Shown here: positions 5,093 to 15,173 of the stretch, piece by piece
How the letters are laid out: each line of letters opens with the position of its first letter
How positions within the stretch are numbered: position 1 is the stretch's first letter
NCBI GenBank assembly: GCA_024345305.1
Contig: BRON01000004.1
Coordinates: forward strand, 1,674,001 to 1,738,000
Source: Mrakia gelida
Lineage: Eukaryota; Basidiomycota; Tremellomycetes; Cystofilobasidiales; Mrakiaceae
Reading direction: 5' to 3'
DNA length: 64,000 nucleotides
Made by a program: the position numbers and the translations under genes
The notes under the pieces: generated by a model
Told to the model about the DNA's origin: nothing
Database searches by the model: none
Seen by the model: the letters and a program-made list of their open reading frames with translations, nothing else

Positions 5093-7793
5093 TTAAGCGA
5101 GAGGCTTGAGACCGAGCTCTTCGCAGGTCGTTCCCTCAGGAGCTGCTCGAGAGAAAAGCGACGCGTCAGAGAGAGAAGTTGAGCGTGGGGAAGAAGAGGA
5201 CGGAGGGCTTACTAGGACCGTCTTCCAAGACACCTCCAGCACCGTATACTTTAGCTCCGTTGACGAACAAAGGGCCCGTAGTTCCGAGGACTAACGAAAC
5301 AGCGAGATCAGTCAGTCGGATTCGACGCGACGAGACGAACTGCGAAGAACGGACCGTTGAGGTTGTGGTTTGCGAACAGAGGCTTTCCACAAGATGGGAT
5401 GGTACTGAAATCAAGAAGAGAAAAAGAGTTGGGTCAGAGAGAGCTCAGGAAGAGGGCGAACGAGAGGCAAAAAGGGCAGACGAACTCGAGATCATCCGAC
5501 TCGTCGACATAGAATCCGCTGCACTTTCCCGGCGAGCAGGAGAGGACTGCTACGGTGTTGCCAAACTTTCCCGAGGCGGCGTGCGCACCTGGGACGGGGT
5601 GGTGATCGGTGAAGCTGAAGAGAAAGAGGAAGAGGTTGGTGACTGACGCAGAACGCGAAAGAGGAAGAGGAGGCACGAACAAGATGTTGCTGATCTCAAT
5701 GCTGAAATGACGAAAGGAGTGTCAGCTATGGTATGGGAGGAATCTAGGGAAGAGATGGTGATGCTCACTTGGAAGGGTCGACTGAGAAAAGAGACGAAGG
5801 AGAGTCAGCGAGACGCCACGATTTTCGAGACGAAGAGGGACGAGAGGCTCACGAGTGCAGTTTCCAGGGGTGGTCTACAGCGAGAGGATGATAGATCAAC
5901 GGGTCAGCAGTGAATATTGAAGGAGGGAAAGACATCAAGACTGAAAAAGCGTCTGGCGGTGGTCTCGACGCGTCGTTTCGTCGAAGTCGTTTAACGAGAC
6001 TTACCTTGTAGCAGGAATCAAGCGTGATAGCTACGTCGTTGTTTTCGTGCCAGAAATTGGAGAAAACCACCTGCTTGACTCGTCCATAACCCCTCTTCTT
6101 TCCTCCAAAGGCCTTGATTCTACAGAAGCGACCACGACGCGTTTCAGCTCGAGACAGAGAATGGATATGAAGCTGGAAGACTCACCGAGCTCCATTCTCA
6201 GAGTTTCTGATCGTGACGTTGTTGCTGAAAGTGGGAAGGAAGAGGTGTCAGCTTCGGGATGAGAACGGGAAGAGAATGAGGAACACAGCGCTGCGAGCGA
6301 CGCACATGAAAATGTTTTCGACGATGTCTTGCACTCCAGGATACTCTCCGAGCGAGCCTACCGAGACTCCATGTGATCCGTCGCACACGAGGTTGTTGAC
6401 GAAGACGTTGGTTCTGACACGAGAAGGGAAAGGAGGTCAGTTTCGTCGGGTCAACGAACTGCGACGCGTCGGACATGAAGAGTCTTGCGTCTTGCAATAT
6501 CTACACTCACGAATTTGGCTTTAGACTGATACAATCGTCACCAGCTTCATAGTACATGTCGTGGATGAAGATTTGATCCGACTGGTAGATGTCGACTCCA
6601 TCCGTCTCGCGATTGGACTCGCGTCCGAAAGCACGAGCGTTCGATCGACTGAACACAGAGAAGAACGAGAGTCAGAAGCGAGGTCGTGATCTTACACAGA
6701 GGTAGAGAACTTACTTGATCATAGAGACGTGAGACAAGACGACGTTCCTGTGGGCAGAGCGCGCGAAGGTCAGCCAACAAGCTCGAGCGATCAGAGGAAA
6801 GACGAGGAGGACGGACTTTGAGCTGTGAATCATGGTCGTCCACCGAGGAGACTGCACGAAGTGGATGTTGTCGATCTTGAGGCCATCGGACTCGTATACC
6901 TATCAAGCAAGGAAGCTCTGCGTCAGACGCTCGAGTCGCGAGCAAAAGAGAAAGAAGAAAGAAAGCTCACGACGAGGAAGAAAGGCGGTTTGAGGGTCGT
7001 GTCTGCGAGAAGGAGGGTGATGAGTGATCGTTCGGAGTATAGAGCGTAAGTTTCAGACTCACTGGTAACTCGAGCGTCGTAGAAGGTCTGTGAACGAAGA
7101 CAAAGGTCAGCGAAGAAGATTGAGAAGAGGGGACGCGACGCGTCTTCGACGACTCACTTGGCCGTTTCCATCGAAGGTTCCTCCTCCATCGAGCAGGACG
7201 TTGTTTCCTCCGAGAAAGATGAAAGCAGAGTTGGACTGGAAAGACACATTGAAGGCGTTTCCTGGCTCGTTCCAGTACGCGACGTCGGGCCAGAGAGTCA
7301 AGTTGCCGTGGAAGTGGATGTGAACGTCGACGAGCCCAGTGGCGTTGAGCTTAGATCGAATGGAGAGGTTTTGGTCGACAGGAACGACGATATCCTTGCA
7401 AGTCTGTGAGTGGAGAGGGCCAGAACCGAAAGAGAAGAAGGGGTGGAGTTCAGCTCGGATGCGAGCCGAGGACGACGTCGACGAGAGCCAAGAACGAAAA
7501 GAGGGACGGCACTCACGGCGAAGGCAGCTTCAAGAGCTGGAGTATCGTCTCCGCCCTGAGAGAGGGAAGCTGGTCAGCGTTCGGTTGGGAGGAGAGAGAG
7601 GGAAGGAGAGACGACGAACAGAAGCGTAGATCGTGCAGTTCTGGCCGTCGTTGTTTCGACCGTAGACATCTCCACCACGTTTTCCGAACAAGGCAGGCTC
7701 GTTGAGACCTAGACCAGAGTTGAGAGATGGAGCTGCTGCTGCAGACAGAGCGAGGAAAGGGAGAAGGAGGAGAAGGCGAGATGGGCTGAACAT
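5093..7793 (-). CDS. Secreted glycoside hydrolase family 28 (exo-polygalacturonase-like)
   Basis: Eighteen exons join in frame to 459 aa: 7620-7793, 7517-7555, 7158-7403, 7063-7087, 6971-7002, 6817-6899, 6715-6747, 6511-6648, 6306-6413, 6186-6224, 6005-6119, 5853-5874, 5769-5781, 5681-5701, 5501-5614, 5355-5404, 5213-5290, 5093-5142. The start ATG (7793) opens a signal peptide ([20 protein letters not shown]). GH28 hallmarks appear in order: ETDGVD (Asp227, in place of the usual NTD), GDDCISLKP (Asp248/249), [11 protein letters not shown] (His271) and RIK (306-308), then CSPGKCSGF near the C terminus. These are the residues known to hydrolyse alpha-1,4-galacturonan by inversion, so the enzyme looks active and probably degrades plant pectin outside the cell. 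Endo versus exo action is inferred only from overall resemblance. One internal boundary (5614/5681) is chosen by phase. The intron density is extreme for a gene of this length. Confidence 0.92.
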
Positions 7794-8293: not shown

Positions 8294-11200
8294 TCAAGAA
8301 GACGAAAGAGACGTCGCCTCGAGCCTCTTCGCCAGCGTCTCCCCTTCGTCCGCCGGGAGTTTCTCCTCCTTCAGCCCCCAAGCCTTCTTCAGCTCAGCGT
8401 GCGAGGTTTCCATCAACTCCTTCAACTCAACCTCCCAACCGAGTTCCTTCGCGAGCTCCAAACACGTATCGTCCGAATCTCCCAAGACGAGGACGTCCCG
8501 ACCTCCTTCCGAAGCAGGTCGATCGAAGTCGAACCCATGGCGAGCTCCGGGGTAGCTAGCTTCTCCAGCGATTTCTTTGTTGACGAGAAGACGAGGTGTG
8601 TCGGGTTTGACTCGGTCGATGAGGGAAGCGAAGGGCTGTCAGAGAGAACGAAGAGGGTCAGAGAGCGTCGAGAGCTGTAGCAGAGAGACGAAGGAAGAGG
8701 ATAGGACGTACTTGGACCTTGAGGGAGGTTCCTAGAACGATGAGAAGGTCACAATCCTTCGAGAGATCCCCGATGCAGTCGAAGAATCGTTTGGGAAGAC
8801 CCTCGCCTGAGAGAACGAAAGGAAAGGAAATCAGAAGGTGTTGCTCGACGAGGAGTAGAGAGCCGGCGCGACGAACCGAAGAAGACGATGCCAGGCTTGA
8901 CGAGACCGTTGCATCCTCGTTCTTGACACCGAGGGATCTGAGAAGTCTGGATCTTCTCCTTGACCCAGTCGACGTCGGCGGCGGTTTGGCATCTGCGGCG
9001 AGGGATAGGAAGCGAGCAGCCCGTCAGTCTCGAGCCTCATCGACGAGGGAAGGCCAAACGAAGAGGACTCACGAGACGCAATGAGCAGTCGAGAAACTTC
9101 CGTGAGCCTCGACGATGGACGAAACAGGAAGACCAGCGATGGTTTCGAGCGTGTCGATGTTCTGAGTGAAGCATCGTCGAAGAAGACCGTGGGTGTGAAG
9201 CAGTCGGAAGAAGTAGTGGGTCGCCGTCGGTAGGTATTGACCTGGGAGAAGCTCCTTCGCGAGCTAAAAGACGACGAAGAAGACAAGGAGATCAGCCTCG
9301 AGCTCGACGCGAACGAACGAAGGACAGAGACGGGGAACAAACCTCGAAGAACGGCTCCGGCTTAGTCTTGAAGAAAGGAAGGTCGAAGACTGCCTCAGCG
9401 TAAGGAAGGTTGAACCGAGAGAGATTGGCGTAGAGTCCCGTCTCCGGAGATCGGAAGTCGGGGATCCCAGCGTTCGTCGAGATACCAGCGCCTGCGAGGA
9501 TGCAGATGTTGCTCGCTTGACCTGACTTGATCATCCGAGCAATCCCACTGAGACTCTTATCTTCATCCGAGAACGGTGGAAGCTCGGGCTCGACCTGAGA
9601 AGAGAAGCGAGAAAGGGAAAGTCAGCGACGGACGAGCGAACGATGTCGCGGGTCGTGAGGACGAGACTCACGATCTCGGGCTCCAGGATCGAGTTCGCTC
9701 TGCTCGAAGCGAGAACCTCTTGGACCAGATGCGAGGACGGACCTGAAAAGAACGAGAATGATTAGAAGATCAGCTTGTGTTCGTTACAGGTGAAGCGACG
9801 AGTCAACTCGAACTCACTGAACATCCCTCCACTCGCTTCCATCGCAGGGTTGAACGCAGGGCTGGGAGTGAGAGCTCCAAGTTGAGTCTTGAGGAAGGAT
9901 TCGATCTGATCGACGTAGACGGGAGGCAGCTCGTGGGCGGAGACGAAGCGAGTAGCGGCTTCTCGAGGCTCGTCTGAGATTGAGAGAGGGAGGAGGGAGG
10001 GAAGATCAGCGATCTGGGCGCGAACGACGTCGAGGAGGAAGGCAGACGAACCTTGGATGTTGTACTCAAGCTCTATCGGGGGCTTGTCGTCTGCCACGTC
10101 GACCGAGAGACGGAAGCTCGACACTGATTTGAAGAAGACGAGGAAGGAAAGATCGTGAGCTTCGTTCGCGCGAAGGACTCCAGGGAAAAGTCAAACTCAC
10201 AACTTCCTCTCATATCCACAGCAGCAGGAGGACTCTTCACAGCGTCCGCTACCGCTTCCTCGTAAGCCTGAAGGGTATCGTCGTCGGCGAGTCGCTTCTT
10301 GTCCCTCGAGAAGATTCGAGCCGTCGAGTCTGACGCTCCCGTGAGGAGGTCGCCGTTGGGAAGAGCTGCCACCGACCAGACCGAGATCGCTGGGTGAAGG
10401 ATGGTTTGGATCTGCTTTCCGTCTGAAACGATTCGAATAGAAAGAAGGCAAGGTCAGGAAGGAAACGCTCGAAGGGAAGATCGAGGGACGCGTCGACGAC
10501 GAACCTCTCCAGATTCGAACCGAGTGGTCCTCTCCACTCGAAGCGAGATCTCCATCAGGAAGCAGAGCGATGGAGTAGATGAAGGAGGAGTGACCGGCGA
10601 GGATCGAAATGGTCTCTCCTGAGAATCCCCAGATGTGGATGTTTCTGTGCGAGGAAAAGCGAAAGGGCATCAGCGCTCGACGTCTCGACGCGAAAGTCTC
10701 GATATCGTTTCGAAGGAGTGATGAGCTCACCCGTCGTTCGAACACGAAGCGAACTGCTGACTCGGCAGCACGACGATCCCTCGAACACAGTCGGTCGATC
10801 CTGTTTTGAACGAAGCAAAGACGCGTCAGTTCTCGAACCGAGCGAGAACGCGAGCTCGAAAGCTGGTGATGACTGACCTTTGAAGTTCCTGATAGCCTTC
10901 CCCTCTCCATCCCAGTGAATGATAGTCCTATCGGCAGAGCCTGCAGAGCCAAGTCAACCAGGAAAGGTGAGCTCTTCCAACTCAACGTCGCCTCGTTCGT
11001 CTCGTCTCACGTCTCGACTCACCCGTCAAGAAACTCCTCTCCCCTTCCTTCCTCCCACAATCGATCCCCTCCACAATCACTCCCGCCCAAACAGCCTCCT
11101 TATGTCCCTCAAGCACAAACTTCTCGTCCCACTCCTTGGTCCCCCAAACCCTCGCGGTGCAATCCCAACTCGTCGAAATCAACAACTGCTCGGGAAGATC

Positions 11201-12457
11201 CTCGTCTGGGAGAACGGGCACCGCCTCAGGGTTCTGGGATGGGGATCCAGCGATGGAGAACGAGGAGGTCATAGGTGAGGAGGGTGAGATGGAGGAAGCT
11301 GGGGAGGTTCCGGAAGCGAGGTTGGAGGTGCTGATGCTGGTTGGGAGGGTGAGGTTGAAGGTTGAGGTCGTTGGAGAAGCCGGAGGAGGAGTGATGGTCG
11401 TTCCTCCTCCCGCTGAGGTGGTGGTGATATTGAAGGATTTGAAGGAAGAAGAGGAGGTGGGTCGAGAGCGTGGTTTGGCTTTCATGGAGGTTGGGCGTCG
11501 GGTTGAGAGGGCGGCGGCTCGGAGGGTTTGGAGGGAGGAGGGTTGGGAGAGGGGAGGGGCTGAGACGGAGAGGGAGCAGACGTTGGAGGCGTGGCCTGAT
11601 GGGAAGTACGAGGGGGTGGTAGAGAGGAGAGTCAGTTGAAAGGCGCTAGTATAGTTGGAGGGGGGAGACCTGCTGCTCACCGACGAGCGTCTTGATGGCA
11701 TCCTCGTTCCCTCGAGCTTCTCTCCCCGGCGTTGCTCCTTCCTCTCCATCGACGTTGCTCGCCCAGCTTCCGTTGGAGGGACCTTCGTGGATGAGGATCA
11801 GTGACGAGAGGGATCCAGAAGCGATGAGACCTGTGATAAGAAAGAAGCAACGAAGGGAAGATGAGCTCGAGACGTGGAGCGAGAGAGAGAGAGATGGAGT
11901 CGAGGAAAGCGAGGAACGAACCATTCGGATGCTCCACCGTAGGAGCGAGATAAGCTACAGAGTTCACATACGACCCATGTCCCAGTCCAACTCCAGTAAG
12001 CTTGAACTGAGAGAAGAGGAAGCAACACGATTTCAGTGAGCTCGAAGAGAGAAAGCAACGGAGGGAGGGAGAGGAGGTCGACTCGAGCTGCTTCCACTCA
12101 CTTCTCTATCTCCAGGCTTCTCTCTCCCCCAAGAGCACACCGTCTCGTCCCTAGAAGCTGTGAGCAGGAGGTTGTTTCGAGGCGCTAAGACAGCTTTCAC
12201 ATCGCTCTCGTGAGCCTGAGGGAGGGAGGGGTGTAGGGGGAGAGGGAAGGAAGGAGGGGAAGTCAGCTCGTGTTTGGTTGACTCGTCTCGAGACCTTGAG
12301 AGATCTAGATATCCTACGAGACTGGTTCTAGAGCGTGAAGAGAGCCCCGACTCTTCTATACAGCCAGGACCTCGAGATCGGGGATGAAAGGAAGGGAAAG
12401 ACTGACCTCCAAGGTCGCTGAGAAACGGAAGGGAAGTCGTAGCTCGTCCAGCGGCAT
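8294..12457 (-). CDS. WD40-PFU-Sir2 fusion: Doa1/Ufd3-like propeller joined to a sirtuin deacetylase
   Basis: Seventeen exons close in frame to 920 aa: 12407-12457, 12102-12215, 11922-12006, 11681-11830, 11023-11595, 10878-10940, 10731-10800, 10505-10644, 10201-10422, 10052-10123, 9818-9973, 9672-9742, 9343-9594, 9073-9263, 8877-8992, 8712-8806, 8294-8635. Residues 1-~460 form the WD40 propeller typical of Doa1/PLAA ([53 protein letters not shown] split over exons). A Ser/Thr/Pro insert of roughly 110 residues lies in exon 5. Residues ~490-560 are a PFU ubiquitin-binding domain ([17 protein letters not shown]). Residues ~590-870 are a class I-like sirtuin: GAGIST (from ~624), [20 protein letters not shown], catalytic His ~727 in VEAHGS, zinc ligands CVSC and CQERGC, GTSLKVQPFASL, LLVNKE. 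The PUL domain that normally follows PFU and binds Cdc48 is absent. Exons 11-12-13 join through normal introns with no stop. A two-gene model would need the sirtuin to start inside the PFU exon (ATGs near residues 556-562). Confidence 0.78.
9743..9817 (-). other. Junction intron between PFU and sirtuin parts
   Basis: The 75-nt intron has GTGAGT, an internal CTGAT and TTTTCAG, like every other intron of the gene. If retained, translation would stop after about 16 extra residues and give a WD40-PFU protein without sirtuin. This makes it the decisive splice for the fusion. Confidence 0.75.
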
Positions 12458-12861: not shown

Positions 12862-14711
12862 TCAAAATCTACCAGCTTCCTGACCCAAGAAAGTCCAGTC
12901 TCCACAATCCGAGCAGTCCTCCTTCTCATGGGTAACGAGAGGAACTTCAGTCCAGTCTCTACCTCTTCCGTCAGGTCCCTCCTTCTCGCCGTTGTTCCAG
13001 TCCTGACGAAGAGAGAAGAGAGACGAGGACGCGAAGGAAGGAGAGGTCAGCGAAGGGATGGCAGATCGAGGAGAAGAGATGAGACGCACTAGGCTGTAGA
13101 CGTTGTCTGTAAGGAGAAGAAGGGAAGTAGAGTCAGCGAGTGCGAGGGGCTCGAAGAAGGGAAGATGGAGAAGACGACGAACCGATCGCGTACTGAATCG
13201 TGTGCGAACGACCTGTCAGATCGACGTTCCATCCCCACTGGAAGACGACGAAGAGAACGCAGATCGTCAGCTCAATCCTCAAAAGAGGTCTCGAAGCTCA
13301 AACCCACCTTCTCAACAGTCTCGTACACGATCAAGTTGCCCTGATGGCACTCCGACTCCATCGCGTACCCTCCCCTCCCACACAGGCTCAGCACCCCCCT
13401 GCACTTCCCCACCGCCATCACATCTCCAGTGTGGTAGATGTGAGTTACAGGGTTGAGCTCCCTCCTCCCGTGAGGCATGTCGAGCCTTAAGCGACGAACG
13501 GCGAGTCGATCCGGAGGAGCTTCGAATGAAATCGTTGGGAGGGAGAAGGTGAGACCGAGGAGGGCTGAGACGACTCCTCCTAGACTGTGACCGACGAGCC
13601 AGATCTGAGCGTGAGGATAGAGGAGACGGATTTGGGCGTAGAGGGTCTGGATGAGAGGAAGGGAAGGTCAGCGCGTCGAGATTGGAGGAGAGCGAGGGAG
13701 AAGGCGAAGGACTCACGATCGCTGCAACGTAGTAGCTGTCCTCGTCGTACAGAGACATCTCAACGCATGAAGAGTCACAGATCTTCTTCTCCCTGTTGAT
13801 CTTTCCACCGACGAAGCAAGGGCAGACGTTCGGAGAGGTCGGGTTGAGGTGACCGCTGGGACGACGAGGACGGCAACGAGCGAGTCAGTCTGTGAGCTTT
13901 ACGGGACAAAGTCTCGAGGTTTCGAGAACTCAGGGTCGAGGAGAAGACGTACCAGCAACAACTGAAGAGCTTGTTATCGTTGATTCGATCCAGTCGAGCC
14001 GTCGACCCTCCCTTCGGCACCGGTCCATCCAAACTCGTTCCCTTGATCGATACGACCAGCGTTGAGTTCGTCGAGTCCGCGAAGACATGCCCTCTCAGAC
14101 CAGCATCGTCCTCTCCCCATCCGAAAGGAAGAGTCTGTAAGCGAGCATGCAAAGGTAAGTCATTGAGGAGAGGGAGCGACCGAGAGGGGACGGAGGACGA
14201 GGAGGAAAGGACGAAGCGAGCTCACCAAGTTGAACTTGTCCAACTCCATCCACCTCGACTCCCCTGGAGTCGCATAAGCATCGTTCGCCATCCTAGCAAG
14301 GTTGAGAACTGTCTGCTTGTCTGTGAGATCTGGAGCGTCGACCTCTACTTCCTCCCAGCGAAGGTTGTCGTCCTCCTCGCTTGAGGCTGAGTCCCATCCA
14401 AGGTTGCTCCAAGCTCCTCCTCCTGCTCCTGCTCCCTGTAGGATCAAACCTGAGCTTCCAGTACCAGATCTCCGACGAAGAATAGTCCGACGAGTAGTCT
14501 TGAGTTGGAAGGCGAGAGGAGAGGAAGCTGAGAAGATGGAGGAGGAGGAGGAGTTGGCGAGGTTGGGGGAGGCAGGGTGGAGAGTGGAATGATGATGCTT
14601 CTGGATCGGGTGAAACGTCGTGGATCCGTTGGAGTCCGAGGGTGAAGGCGAGGCTAGAAGGAGTGGTGGGATGAGGATGAGAGCGAAGAAGGAGAAGGAG
14701 GAGGGAAGCAT
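12862..14711 (-). CDS. ATG15: Autophagy lipase ATG15
   Basis: Seven exons (14226-14711, 13953-14134, 13717-13855, 13308-13646, 13183-13237, 13090-13106, 12862-13002) give 452 aa. The N terminus ([13 protein letters not shown]) is a single signal anchor. The class-3 lipase core shows the nucleophile elbow GHSLGG (Ser ~290), then [30 protein letters not shown] and a C-terminal CSDCGDW, all diagnostic of fungal Atg15. NDNKLFSCC matches the conserved loop ahead of the catalytic block. Known family role: a phospholipase carried by the multivesicular-body route to the vacuole, where it lyses autophagic bodies and Cvt vesicles. The length is slightly below that of the budding-yeast protein. A 17-nt exon encodes only six residues. 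The start at 14711 is chosen because the anchor follows directly. Confidence 0.93.
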
Positions 14712-15173
14712 GGTCGCTGAGCGTTGGGGAGGAGGAAGAGGAGAGAACGTTCAAGACAGGGCCAGGGCGAGAGACGAATCGGGACCGTCGCCGAGGCTGA
14801 GCTTGGTTACTCCCCTTTCTGATAGTGAGATCAGAAAAATCTCCGAGACGGAATCGGAACGAAGGAAATTCTGCTGTTCAACTCTGGAATCAGCTCAGAT
14901 GTTGGGCTGATTAGAGAAGTGGGCTGAAGCTCGCGAGAGGGCTGGGCTCGACTCGTCGCTACCTCCCTTCGCGTGAGTTTTTCACGTCGAACTCAGAGGA
15001 AGATCGTGCTCAGATCAATCATCCTCGTTTCCAGCCACATTTTTCCTTCATCTCATCCTCAGGAAAGTTGGACTTGACGACTCGGACGCGACTCGCTTGA
15101 CGGTTCGAGCTCGTCCCTTCGTTCGAGCTCTCCAAAGTCCTTCCTCTCTCCTTCAACCCTCACTCAATAAACA
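14712..15173. promoter_or_regulatory. Divergent promoter region, ATG15 / CHZ1-like
   Basis: Two head-to-head genes start at either end of this 462-bp spacer, so it must contain both promoters. No TATA box is obvious. A CACTCAATAAACA leader directly precedes the plus-strand ATG. Confidence 0.5.

Follow-up and report, generated by a model that had tools for sequence, protein, structure and literature searches.

A Doa1-derived WD40 propeller probably fused to an Hst2/SIRT2-type sirtuin in Mrakia gelida, with the same predicted domain order in Phaffia and Wallemia

A gene located in a 64,000-nucleotide stretch of the Mrakia gelida genome (the window) is predicted to encode one protein in which a Doa1-type WD40 propeller, a remnant of a PFU domain, a short linker, and a complete SIRT2/Hst2-type sirtuin follow one another. 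We consider it probable that this is a real and conserved fusion gene, in which a duplicate of Doa1, deprived of PUL and of the N-terminal half of PFU, has been joined ahead of the cell's Hst2/SIRT2-type sirtuin. This reading is based on the architecture, the intact catalytic motifs, a deletion shared among the fusions, a separate canonical Doa1 in the same genome, and the same domain order in gene models of Phaffia and Wallemia.

An earlier note on this DNA stated that 17 exons chain in phase from ATG to stop and that no stop separates the PFU exon from the Sir2 exons, which proved exact on splicing and on rebuilding of the CDS. The exons are in frame on the minus strand (Table 1), splicing at the listed coordinates gives back an identical 920-aa protein, every one of the 16 introns has GT...AG borders, and no stop codon is present between PFU exon 11 and SIR2 exon 13. 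The two linker introns (11 and 12) possess the donor GTGAGT, which is the commonest one in the gene (6 of 16 introns). The distance from the end of PFU (aa 545, 9879) to the start of the sirtuin core (aa 601, 9561) is about 317 bp including these two introns, all of it exon or intron in the model, compared with gaps of roughly 400 and 500 bp, by reading of the window, that separate the gene from the neighbouring reading frames. Chance joining of exons is ruled out, because predicted proteins of other basidiomycetes show the same domain order. The upstream neighbour (window 12862-14750, minus strand) has a weak similarity to Lipase_3 (21.4 bits, below the 22-bit cut-off). The downstream one (window about 5850-7793, minus strand) has a signal-peptide-like start; its motifs look like those of a GH28 polygalacturonase, and the one piece of it that was scanned gave no Pfam match.

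Table 1. Features of the predicted fusion gene and protein (window positions)
Feature	Position	Strand	Basis
Whole coding span, 17 exons, 920 aa (ATG 12457, stop ending 8294)	8294..12457	-	in-frame splicing, rebuilt from coordinates
Exons 1-9	12457-12407, 12215-12102, 12006-11922, 11830-11681, 11595-11023, 10940-10878, 10800-10731, 10644-10505, 10422-10201	-	
Exons 10-17	10123-10052, 9973-9818, 9742-9672, 9594-9343, 9263-9073, 8992-8877, 8806-8712, 8635-8294	-	
Seven-bladed WD40 propeller (blades counted by reading of sequence), aa 13 to about 455	10304..12421	-	Pfam WD40 and Doa1 structure match
PFU C-terminal half, aa 491-545	9879..10121	-	Pfam PF09070 profile 52-109 of 113; local PFU model from 60 of 121
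Linker interrupted by introns 11 and 12, aa 546-600	9562..9878	-	gene model
SIRT2/Hst2-type sirtuin core, aa 601-889	8390..9561	-	PF02146, human SIRT2 4rmg_A match, motifs
Sirtuin core motifs: 14-residue motif at aa 624, FTQNID at aa 705, GTSLKV at aa 801			
Sirtuin core His 727; four zinc Cys 735, 738, 759, 764			

The N-terminal part is a propeller of the kind that characterizes Doa1/Ufd3/PLAA proteins. It was identified by Pfam WD40 (E 6.4e-32), and among solved structures its best match over one continuous stretch was yeast Doa1 (3odt_A, 162 bits, rising to 180 bits once the blade-3 insert is excluded), while repetitive WD40 chains (2ymu and WRAP-T chains) outscore Doa1 only by adding up several stretches. 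The insert in blade 3 is Ser/Thr/Pro-rich and about 120 residues long (about aa 147-268; window about 11194-11559, minus strand); it is also present in the Phaffia fusion and absent from W. ichthyophaga. Behind the propeller, Pfam PFU was matched at 488-545 (E 5.4e-10) and only profile positions 52-109 of 113 are covered, so the complete PFU domain of Doa1/Ufd3/PLAA is lacking. A Pfam scan of the 920 aa found neither the C-terminal PUL of these proteins nor a zf-UBP domain (PF02148) as in HDAC6. The description in the earlier note of a WD40-PFU protein fused to a complete sirtuin without PUL therefore holds for a single predicted protein with WD40, PFU, and full SIR2, with the correction that the N-terminal half of PFU is gone.

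The C-terminal part contains a complete SIR2 domain (PF02146, 624-808, E 2.6e-57, profile 1-180 of 180) with the NAD and catalytic motifs expected of the Hst2/SIRT2 class. Human SIRT2 (4rmg_A) is the top structure match for aa 601-889 with 325.6 bits, and the scores descend from SIRT2 (325) through SIRT3 (267) and Hst2 (195) to SIRT1 (178 bits), with SIRT3 standing above yeast Hst2. The motifs are those of NAD binding, catalysis (His 727), and zinc binding (the four Cys). The catalytic motifs are intact in all five fusions, and the sirtuin is a putative NAD-dependent deacylase. AlphaFold2, run on the Phaffia fusion protein with a 30-row alignment, gave a confident propeller and sirtuin, and the PFU remnant (497-552) was modelled as two strands and two helices (block pLDDT 67-96 over 491-550). 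The linker (551-650) had low pLDDT (30-63) and the whole-model pTM was 0.51, so the placement of the domains relative to each other is not predicted.

The idea of the fusion as a one-off had to be given up, because the WD40-PFU-SIR2 order was also found in predicted proteins of Phaffia rhodozyma (P0001, 1 sequence in its cluster), Wallemia ichthyophaga (P0005, 9), W. mellicola (P0006, 30), and W. hederae (P0008, 1). Phaffia belongs to the Tremellomycetes and Wallemia to the Wallemiomycetes, and in databases these fusion proteins bear names like 'sirtuin 2'. When residues 440-920 were used as query (7992 candidates scored, 357 matches), four of the best 120 of 357 had the full order, namely these. 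The search with residues 310-600 returned mostly canonical Doa1 and other WD40 proteins in the best 120 of 438, among which P0001 was the only one showing SIR2 (some domain annotations are incomplete), and a profile of three fusions recovered P0001 and P0006 among the best 120 of 393, P0005 and P0008 not being among these. In a motif test of 339 database proteins collected, PFU and the sirtuin core occurred together only in P0001, P0005, P0006, and P0008. This small number of species counts against a conserved fusion. The W. mellicola and W. hederae models have an RRM protein in front as well, which is probably an annotation merge. A candidate from Cryptococcus amylolentus (P0063) was rejected as a fusion; it carries Utp12 next to WD40 in the part ahead of the sirtuin (among the best 25 of 44 families), and it is absent from the PFU-model matches. 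Two Rhodotorula proteins (P0328, P0332) have WD40 and full PFU and end right after PFU without PUL; they are perhaps cut gene models. Considered as possible PUL-less intermediates, they lay with the five fusions on one side of a branch in a constrained tree search, with support of only 40/89.

The missing PUL of the earlier note is an absence from the fusion protein, not a loss from the organism. A separate canonical WD40-PFU-PUL Doa1 (partial gene model; complete PFU 364-470, PUL 547-735) sits on contig C20, which rules out the loss of PUL from the genome, and an exon-by-exon genome search found PUL matches only there and at a second PUL locus on contig C5. The same note had held that a full-length WD40-PFU-PUL gene elsewhere in the genome, combined with separate sirtuin transcripts starting within exon 11, would speak against the fusion; the first half of this combination is what C20 provides. 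Ten fusion introns were mapped, and two of them share alignment column and phase with introns of this Doa1; both are of phase 1, and they lie in blade 2 and in PFU. Such shared intron positions and phases, together with the existence of a separate canonical Doa1, indicate that the fusion is a diverged Doa1 paralogue.

Further SIR2 matches outside the window were detected on C11, C18, C9, and C8, which match the fusion sirtuin in pieces of 30-57% identity over short stretches, none of them close. According to their motif patterns, these loci are presumably of Sir2/Hst1, Hst3/4, and mitochondrial types. The exon-by-exon genome search, which may miss an Hst2 locus, found no second Hst2-like sirtuin, and the available passages of a previous study report one sirtuin for each of five subfamilies in Ustilago maydis (PMC10126416), suggesting that the fusion probably fills the Hst2 slot of the cell.

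According to the proposed course of events, a Doa1 gene would have been duplicated, one copy would have been stripped of PUL and of the N-terminal half of PFU, and the shortened copy would have been placed in front of an Hst2/SIRT2-type sirtuin gene; one mRNA would give one protein of about 100 kDa. The propeller, perhaps with the PFU remnant, would direct the NAD-dependent deacylase to proteins that carry ubiquitin. As PUL is absent, these proteins would no longer be handed to Cdc48 in the Doa1 manner, and the fusion would use NAD to strip acyl groups from them or from their surroundings. We infer, as did the earlier note, a single protein that could both read ubiquitin and remove acyl groups. 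In previous studies, the WD40 propeller of PLAA binds ubiquitin more strongly than PFU does (Kd of the propeller for mono-ubiquitin ~220 uM; PMC5420347), and the Doa1 propeller can stand in for the ubiquitin-binding propeller of COPI (PMC5663479), so ubiquitin binding could survive the loss of half of PFU. The broader proposal is a tentative one, namely that these proteins form a conserved basidiomycete family of ubiquitin-guided NAD-dependent deacylases, in which the Doa1 duplicate is the substrate finder of Hst2, and which would be a sirtuin counterpart of HDAC6, separately reached by dictyostelid zf-UBP sirtuins. It is rather unlikely, though not by a wide measure, that the fusion is real and its propeller has ceased to bind ubiquitin and now does no more than localise Hst2 or serve it as a scaffold. 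The loss of half of PFU in all five fusions and the long stem branches of the fusion propellers (1.33 and 1.77 changes per column in the WD40-PFU tree) would fit such a role, whereas the propeller is kept, no solved structure matches it better over a single stretch than Doa1 does, and some sirtuins of another lineage carry zf-UBP.

The five predicted fusions have a deletion in common. A local PFU model of 121 positions, for which 60 sequences covering the domain were selected, matched 174 proteins; the match starts at 43-63 of 121 in the five fusions and at 26 or before in 168 of the 169 other proteins, the exception being P0282 at 42. The end of blade 7 and the DVD strand are separated by 46-49 residues in the five fusions and by 105-110 in the five canonical Doa1s measured, and the missing PFU stretch includes GQVxMVK...VEAxQWS...IGEVV. 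PUL and the N-terminal half of PFU are both missing in 5/5 fusions, which argues against an annotation accident. A merged model would be expected to keep the whole upstream gene, and the absence of the same part of PFU in two classes speaks against a merge.

As to the number of origins, the trees neither establish nor reject one clade of all five fusions. Support for grouping the window and Phaffia fusions was 100/100 in the WD40-PFU tree; in the SIR2 tree, which was built without rows P0097 and P0110 because they have no GAGxS motif, it was 97/87. The three Wallemia fusions grouped with 100/100 in both. All five formed one clade in 34% of bootstraps of the WD40-PFU tree (p-AU 0.528; the constrained tree scored 0.66 higher) and in 1% of bootstraps of the SIR2 tree (p-AU 0.177, not rejected). 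The position of the Wallemia sirtuins in the SIR2 tree, beside Hst2 of the Rhodotorula/Microbotryomycetes type (92/88) and apart from window and Phaffia, counts against a single origin. We nevertheless lean towards a single origin of the join, because the PFU deletion is common to both lines. Two independent joins, one in Wallemia and the other in the line of window and Phaffia, appear unlikely: the SIR2 tree and the WD40-PFU tree as drawn each need two changes, with the low bootstrap proportions given above, but neither p-AU value rejects one clade and the same half of PFU has been lost in both lines.

The linker bears on whether one product is made. In the window fusion, in-frame ATGs occur at aa 558 and 564 (linker, exon 11) and another at aa 610 (core), and retention of intron 11 would add 18 codons before an in-frame stop. 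One gene could thus give two products, the full fusion together with either a shorter sirtuin from the exon 11 start or, where intron 11 is retained, a WD40-PFU isoform. This is doubtful, since in the other four fusions (4/5) the sole Met between PFU and the catalytic GAGxS sits two residues ahead of GAGxS, which leaves their sirtuins without a linker start within the predicted exons, an unannotated first exon being possible. The frequency of joined sirtuin models counts against a fusion: among the matches listed, 117 sirtuins contain the core motif, and in 37 of them it is preceded by more than 250 residues (a length-selected list, four fusions included). Fungal Hst2 models were found joined to MBOAT (P0021), P450 (P0069 and P0115), GST (P0064), hexokinase (P0081), COG4 (P0104), kinase (P0038), and Pwp2-like (P0063) parts, and these unrelated joins are likely annotation merges. 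That the model merely merges two adjoining genes, a shortened Doa1 copy and an ordinary Hst2, each having its own transcript, is very improbable: Hst2 models are frequently merged with neighbours, the exon 11 ATGs would yield a sirtuin of ~360 residues, which is about as long as yeast Hst2, and two Wallemia models have yet another protein in front, but the short distance from PFU to sirtuin core is fully occupied by exon and intron in the model, the identical join and identical PFU deletion recur in five species (two classes where species are named), and the linker ATG is absent from 4/5 fusions.

Among the matches listed in the CC-licensed literature, no paper was found to describe a WD40-PFU-sirtuin join by title or abstract opening. 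The main text of a study on C. neoformans sirtuins (PMC5399365) contains no mention of WD40, Wallemia, Phaffia, Xanthophyllomyces, fusion, or ubiquitin, 'WD40' is absent from the available passages of PMC10126416, and PMC8631298 was discarded because its content, as far as accessible, is unrelated. Some of the literature searches on the biochemistry of PFU and the propeller and on sirtuins of dictyostelids gave no paper. As the join is predicted in a few other fungi and no paper on it was found among the matches listed, the fusion looks like a new domain architecture built of known parts, a real but undescribed enzyme design. In the available passages of PMC11274570, Phaffia mutants were selected and mapped, and gene g2846, sirtuin-2-like with a splicing mutation, is labelled 'Sirtuin, class II'; g2846 could be the fusion gene. 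Such selection and mapping of mutants makes the idea testable. If it is true, ubiquitin reading and NAD-dependent deacylation, signals that are mostly investigated separately, would be physically tied, and this tie would sit in what seems to be the cell's only Hst2-type enzyme, as no other was found in the genome search. A natural PUL-free relative of Doa1 would also separate ubiquitin reading from delivery to Cdc48.

Compared with known systems, the fusion resembles Doa1/Ufd3/Lub1/PLAA in its propeller, in the position of PFU after it, and in the two intron positions common with the Doa1 of the genome; it differs in lacking PUL and the N-terminal half of PFU and in having a sirtuin where PUL would be. 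Like the Hst2/SIRT2 class I sirtuins, it has a complete catalytic core with zinc cysteines and SIRT2 as best match, whereas ~600 residues (Doa1-derived propeller, PFU remnant, and linker) stand in front of the core. HDAC6 is a zinc-dependent, not NAD-dependent, protein deacetylase with a ubiquitin-binding zf-UBP at its C-terminus, and is similar in that a protein deacetylase is joined to a domain of ubiquitin-binding kind. All five zf-UBP sirtuins were confirmed (dictyostelid P0029, P0032, and P0043, plus P0014 and P0036); they possess a sirtuin close to that of the fusion (the best structure for P0029 is SIRT2) and an N-terminal domain of a ubiquitin-binding class, which is zf-UBP instead of propeller and PFU, and they presumably originated independently of the fusion.
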